Assembly (NCBI GenBank): GCA_018693105.1
Contig: JABHLN010000025.1
Location: forward strand, 1-40,704
Source: Desulfobacterales bacterium
GTDB taxonomy: Bacteria > Desulfobacterota > Desulfobacteria > Desulfobacterales > SURF-7
DNA length: 40,704 bases
Direction of reading: 5' to 3'
Positions 8,301 to 8,471 of the stretch are shown here, piece by piece. A program made the position numbers and the translations under genes. The notes under the pieces are model-generated. The model was not told the DNA's origin and did no database searches. It saw only the letters and a program-made list of their open reading frames with translations. Positions within the stretch are counted from its first letter, which is position 1, and each line of letters opens with the position of its first letter.

Positions 8301-8321
8301 ATGAAACTTTACAAAATTTGA
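5310..8321 (+). CDS. M16C-family zinc metallopeptidase (insulinase/PreP-like)
   Basis: 1003 aa; inverted zinc motif [31 protein letters not shown]; C-terminal RxxGGAYG-type motif ([12 protein letters not shown]). Confidence 0.95.
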   Translation: [1003 protein letters not shown]

Positions 8322-8471
8322 TGGCGTCGTAAAAAGTCACCATCTATTGCGTTATAGCGTTTGGCCAGACGTTCTACATACTGCATGTATGCCCTCACAC
8401 CTGGCTAAACATTATGCCTTGTATATGAAGATTTTTACTTAGCCATTGATTAAAGTTTACAAGAGTTCATT
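8318..8471 (+). repeat. Dispersed palindromic element, full copy 2
   Basis: ttgatggcgtcgtaaaaagtcaccatctattgcgttatagcgtttggccagacg...cacacctggctaaacattatgccttgtatatgaagatttttacttagccattg...; overlaps the stop codon of the upstream peptidase gene. Confidence 0.94.

Follow-up and report, generated by a model that had tools for sequence, protein, structure and literature searches.

A MITE-like repeat of a Desulfobacterales bacterium docks head-first at gene ends and supplies their stop codons

Insertions of a short mobile repeat at gene ends in the genome of a Desulfobacterales bacterium are strongly directional. On top of an ordinary intergenic background, copies lie with one particular end, the head, towards the gene and within about 10 nt of its stop codon. 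Where a copy has been inserted between the last sense codon and the stop, the TGA of the element becomes the new stop codon, the old one lies beyond the other end of the element, and the protein stays as it was. The best explanation, to which we assign a probability of roughly 0.6, is that the repeat is a MITE-type, non-autonomous DNA transposon with a stop-restoring TGA terminus and a docking direction set at integration.

The analysis covered 2.33 of the 3.24 Mb (~72%) of a fragmented genome assembly (171 contigs, 92% complete). A first set of 1.58 Mb includes the window, that is, the whole 40,704-nt stretch of DNA presented here, and a second set of 0.75 Mb was held out and tested with models and target motif fixed beforehand. 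Genes were called by a simple home-made hexamer-based caller, and distances were measured between the first bases of the stop codon and of the element, starting at the stop codon. In the null model, each permitted insertion site was weighted by the observed target motif.

The mobile repeat is MITE-like and about 154 bp long, with a modal length of 155-157 bp in the 1.58 Mb when the outer bases are counted. Features that characterize MITEs were found in it, including the terminal inverted repeat TGATGNNNTCGTAAAAAG on both ends, a short body without a transposase gene that forms a hairpin over its full length, dispersed positions at high copy number (263 copies or fragments over 1.58 Mb), and a target duplication of 4 bp in 58 of the 113 complete copies. 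In the same 1.58 Mb, 318 termini and 87 complete inverted pairs were counted, and the TGATGNNNTCGTAAAAAG pattern yields 282 exact termini in the 3.24-Mb genome, compared with 0 for the reversed control. The two ends are asymmetric: the short head end is TGATGGCGTCGTAAAAAG and the short tail end TGATGAACTCGTAAAAAG, the fuller sequences being TGATGGCG(or GCT)TCGTAAAAAGTC for the head and TGATGAACTCGTAAAAAGTA for the tail. As the initial annotation had described, the termini carry stops in all three inward frames, namely TGA at base 1, TAA at base 12, and the third frame at base 44 (head) or base 32 (tail). RNA of either strand gives a long hairpin, which starts at base 2 of the head and about 25 nt into the tail. 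The insertion target is (Y)AA[NNNN]T(R)A, with NNNN duplicated (logo A-NNNN-T), a palindrome that presents the same motif to either end of the element.

Two internal subfamilies, A and B, have these ends in common. Variants of subfamily A carry either GATC/GATC or GGCC/GGCC, which are paired changes in the central stem, so the palindrome was kept while the family spread, for DNA or RNA reasons. Relatives are also present in further genera of this family, with as many as 97 exact matches, and a scan with one genome per species returned 117 stretches, mostly from Desulfobacterota. The element has no match in Rfam 15 at gathering score, the single window match there being a tRNA. Termini are also frequent at contig ends, lying within the first 100 bases of G000 C3, C23, C33, C36, C47, and C52, and the repeat probably breaks this assembly.

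In the window, 10 near-matches to the terminus were found, compared with 0.7 expected in shuffles; the copies and remnants are listed in Table 1. It had been proposed from the sequence alone that the element supplies the stop codons of three genes, those of an M16 peptidase, an ArsP-like permease, and a half-permease. The three TGA codons are present as described, and in each case the codon is the first TGA that an element terminus contains; however, only the peptidase gene bears a head-docked, near-complete copy, while the other two codons belong to tail remnants. As a fourth case, the last codons and the stop of a GIY-YIG nuclease-like gene come from an element copy that is read in its third frame. 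The ArsP_1-like protein of the half-permease gene aligns with the first part of the domain alone and scores under the curated cut-off; together with the neighbouring 39040-39453 it may constitute a split permease.

Table 1. Element copies, remnants, and element-derived stops in the window
Feature	Position	Strand	Remark
Complete undocked copy between divergent genes	3786-3940	-	Target duplication AGAT
Element copy, subfamily A, head-docked on M16 (PreP-like) peptidase gene; tail eroded	8319-8470	+	Model positions 1-152 of 154
TGA stop of M16 peptidase gene 5310-8321, the element's first three bases	8319-8321	+	Orthologues end at same residue
Complete undocked copy	10206-10359	+	Target duplication ATCT
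Tail-type terminus remnant (~20 nt), supplies TGA 10647-10649 of ArsP_1 permease gene 10647-11780	10630-10649	-	Rest of element lost
Divergent element-like copy	19193-19338	.	GIY-YIG gene 18840-19226 (+) and gene 19260-20162 (-) both end inside
Tail-type remnant (~42 nt), supplies TGA 38516-38518 of ArsP_1-like half-permease gene 38516-39040	38477-38518	-	

The association with stops is a genome-wide pattern, with dozens of genes ending inside the repeat and with gene-end-to-element distances that pile up at exactly zero. The tabulation of element ends against stop codons that the initial annotation had suggested revealed a strong enrichment. In the 1.58 Mb, the stop is the first TGA of the head for 33 of 185 heads, compared with 2.1 expected under the target-matched null (p≈1e-29), and 28 heads lie at -9 to -1 nt, where about 2.8 are expected. 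Tails follow the null, with 2 stops at their first TGA (1.8 expected) and one copy at -9 to -1 (2.5 expected); a further count for tails is 4, compared with 2.6 expected. Undocked copies fit the target-matched null as well, and the enrichment is restricted to about 10-20 nt from the stop. The held-out 0.75 Mb gave 12 heads at zero compared with 0.87 expected (p=8e-11) and 8 at -9 to -1 compared with 1.3 expected; docked heads amounted to 20/84 there and docked tails to 3/73 (p=5e-4). In a genome of another genus (G004, 0.28 Mb), 3 heads were found where 0.33 were expected, which is significant; the head-tail contrast, resting on few tails, is non-significant. A test independent of the gene caller counted upstream open reading frames with 150 codons or more. 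In the bacterium's own genome, 30 of them end at the element TGA, compared with 2 and 3 in the other two frames; at loci of other genomes, the numbers are 13, compared with 1 and 3.

The repeat had been described as a translation-stop cassette, a view that stands in so far as a stop is re-created; what is mostly restored, however, is an existing stop, and the genes are not truncated. The element would move by cut-and-insert chemistry, duplicating 4 bp (NNNN) inside A-NNNN-T(R)A, and restoration draws on its outermost bases, TGA, together with the T that starts all stop codons. Among the zero-distance copies, 13 have a readable duplication, and in all 13 a stop triplet follows its second copy (TGA in 9, TAA in 3, TAG in 1); in some cases an older docked element contributes this triplet with its TGA. 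Of the 27 zero-distance heads with a tail, 14 lack a readable duplication. When C-termini were compared with those of orthologues, as had been proposed, 10 of the 11 M16 orthologues with a full reading, as well as the closest two for ArsP, ended at the last residue of the window protein or within about 1 residue, using their own TAA, TAG, or TGA stop. The half-permease had no relatives in the family for this comparison. Since stops lie beyond the duplications and orthologues end at the same residue, the usual outcome is the replacement of an existing stop by an equivalent one, rather than a shortened gene. Nested or tandem arrays at a single gene end are also seen, in which insertions lie beside older copies and the older TGA served as target (G000:C79:31168, L263:10275, and similar loci).

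If the element instead entered coding sequences and shortened proteins with its first available stop, random use would make the three frames about equally common, whereas the combined head-supplied stops comprise the TGA of base 1 in 45 genes, the TAA of base 12 in 11, and the third frame in about 3. Together with the C-termini of the orthologues of two window genes, this refutes truncation as the main process, and we consider it highly improbable in that role. The 11 heads with a base-12 TAA and the roughly 3 with a third-frame stop are plausible C-terminal changes, and for a minority of copies truncation may hold.

Docking could also follow from target-sequence preference alone, as A-NNNN-T(R)A resembles a stop codon and all else might be neutral. 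Given this preference, stops should be hit about five times as often as under uniform insertion (1.1% vs 0.24%); for the tails it is sufficient and fits exactly. Heads, however, exceed its prediction 16-fold, though the palindromic target gives both ends the same motif; with the tails as control, the head-tail contrast rejects this account for heads, and we give it almost no credence. The A at -4 is kept at 85% of docked sites, compared with 41% before the stops of all genes. The palindromic target, the kept A, and the tails that fit the null thus indicate an additional factor, specific to one end, with a reach of about 10-20 nt from the stop. The enrichment at stop codons for which the initial annotation had proposed a check is borne out beyond both chance and target preference, for heads only. 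Two candidate cues were rejected. An AT-content rule (head towards GC-richer DNA) made no difference at purely intergenic sites (p=0.50), and, with respect to a native downstream terminator as target, folding and T-run content were no higher than after other genes.

The docking direction may be set at integration by something that marks gene 3' ends. Alternatively, copies may land at random, and a fixation filter or an RNA-level benefit may favour those that lie head-first and flush with a stop, a contender that we regard as plausible but less probable. It could work through a hairpin that may protect the 3' end of the mRNA, or through a terminating ribosome that may mask the hairpin. In line with it, the hairpin is asymmetric (it begins at base 2 in the head orientation and after about 25 unpaired nt in the tail orientation), the enrichment is confined to the immediate surroundings of the stop, and convergent gene ends have more than their share of docked heads (odds ratio 2.2, p=0.003). 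Against it, docked copies are no older than others, nearest-relative identity being alike in docked and undocked copies (p=0.67). The docked fraction is 11/43 (26%) in the youngest fifth of copies and 11-18 of 43-44 in the other fifths, with a null of about 3%, so that slow retention of docked copies is unsupported. A greater age of docked copies was suggested by the total alignment score; this score falls with tail loss, and core-based measures disagree. Tail loss itself affects 31/61 docked and 39/113 other copies, which hints at some difference in history.

Nor do docked copies carry clear extra compensatory or wobble-favouring changes or fold any better. Single changes giving G-U as opposed to A-C number 33:35 near stops and 48:72 elsewhere, ratios that are not clearly different and lend no support to selection for RNA structure. 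An intrinsic terminator (a short GC stem followed by a T run, SPRITE-like) was absent from the two window copies scanned. Selection for a hairpin added to the transcript end, the other option of the initial annotation, thus finds no backing in pairing conservation, terminators, or copy age. We lean towards targeting at integration, because undocked copies agree with a neutral null, which means that selection would need to act positively on dozens of genes unrelated to one another, and because docked copies show neither a longer life nor extra hairpin conservation. The docked fraction, equally high in the youngest copies, likewise suggests docking at integration and not later selection on an RNA hairpin, although a fixation filter would also look independent of copy age. 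As a speculation, the molecular cue might be naked RNA, or an R-loop, at the point where the ribosome comes off the transcript.

No autonomous partner, that is, a transposase between matching ends, was found in the DNA analysed, and a plasmid collection searched for one gave no match. Pairs of ends that lie 0.7-3.5 kb apart and either show a duplication or enclose a long open reading frame contained ordinary genes in the cases examined. DDE_Tnp_1 and DDE_Tnp_1_4 had no match in the genome, where only an IS1595 fragment and an interrupted rve were present. The only intact transposase among the families searched is of the Y1 (IS200-type) class (G000:C150:19226-19666); it sits in an element of its own, with its own hairpin ends and unrelated to the repeat. 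With no transposase partner found, integration is not tied to an enzyme. Metagenome assemblies often lose transposase genes.

Stops supplied by repeats are not new. The nearest precedent is BOX of Streptococcus pneumoniae, likewise a small high-copy repeat, which, according to sections of its description, supplies 36 CDSs with their stop codon and does not clearly truncate them (PMC3049150). BOX differs in sequence and in its modular boxA/B/C architecture, and the sections considered offer neither a target-matched null nor an analysis of orientation by end, nor do they describe a terminus that restores stops while native ones lie past the duplication (PMC3049150). ERIC of Yersinia and other enterobacteria is also a MITE-like hairpin repeat between genes, but with another sequence and with an orientation-dependent effect on the stability of upstream mRNA; Correia/NEMIS of Neisseria is similar in size (155 bp species), stem-loop, and stops in all frames, but unrelated in sequence, its reported effect being RNase III processing of transcripts. 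Docking at stop codons is described for neither in the portion of the review considered (PMC2229807). At attTn7, the insertion of Tn7 has a fixed orientation and lies about 20 bp past the stop codon of glmS, and thus resembles that of the element in being directional and beside a stop, at a safe site that leaves the gene intact (PMC2918618). Tn7 uses TnsABC+D and a single gene and makes a 5-bp duplication, whereas the present element uses many genes and the stop itself, with a 4-bp duplication and no known selector protein. REP/BIME elements mobilised by Y1 transposases (RAYT) are likewise numerous intergenic palindromes; they are palindromes of 20-40 nt without target duplication and have a RAYT partner, whereas the element here has 154 bp and a 4-bp duplication, and the Y1 transposase of this genome sits in a separate element. 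In the open-licence literature searched, neither the element family nor a stop-restoring terminus with directional docking is described, and the terminus sequence is absent as text. Directional docking combined with a stop-restoring terminus is what is new relative to BOX.

Mobile DNA is usually harmful to the genes it enters. With an element end that doubles as a stop codon, the boundary after the last codon of a gene becomes a harmless landing site. Tentatively, the repeat may represent a system that docks cargo head-first on gene 3' ends in general, guided by transcription or translation termination and not by the sequence of one gene, with a terminus built to restore the stop that it displaces. 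If docking is set at integration, there would be a transposition route that recognises gene ends generally, unlike that of Tn7, which recognises one gene. The family also offers a clear test case for insertion targeting versus selection, in which the heads can be compared with the tails of the same copies as an internal control. In annotating such genomes, one has to reckon with dozens of genes whose stop codon lies within a repeat.
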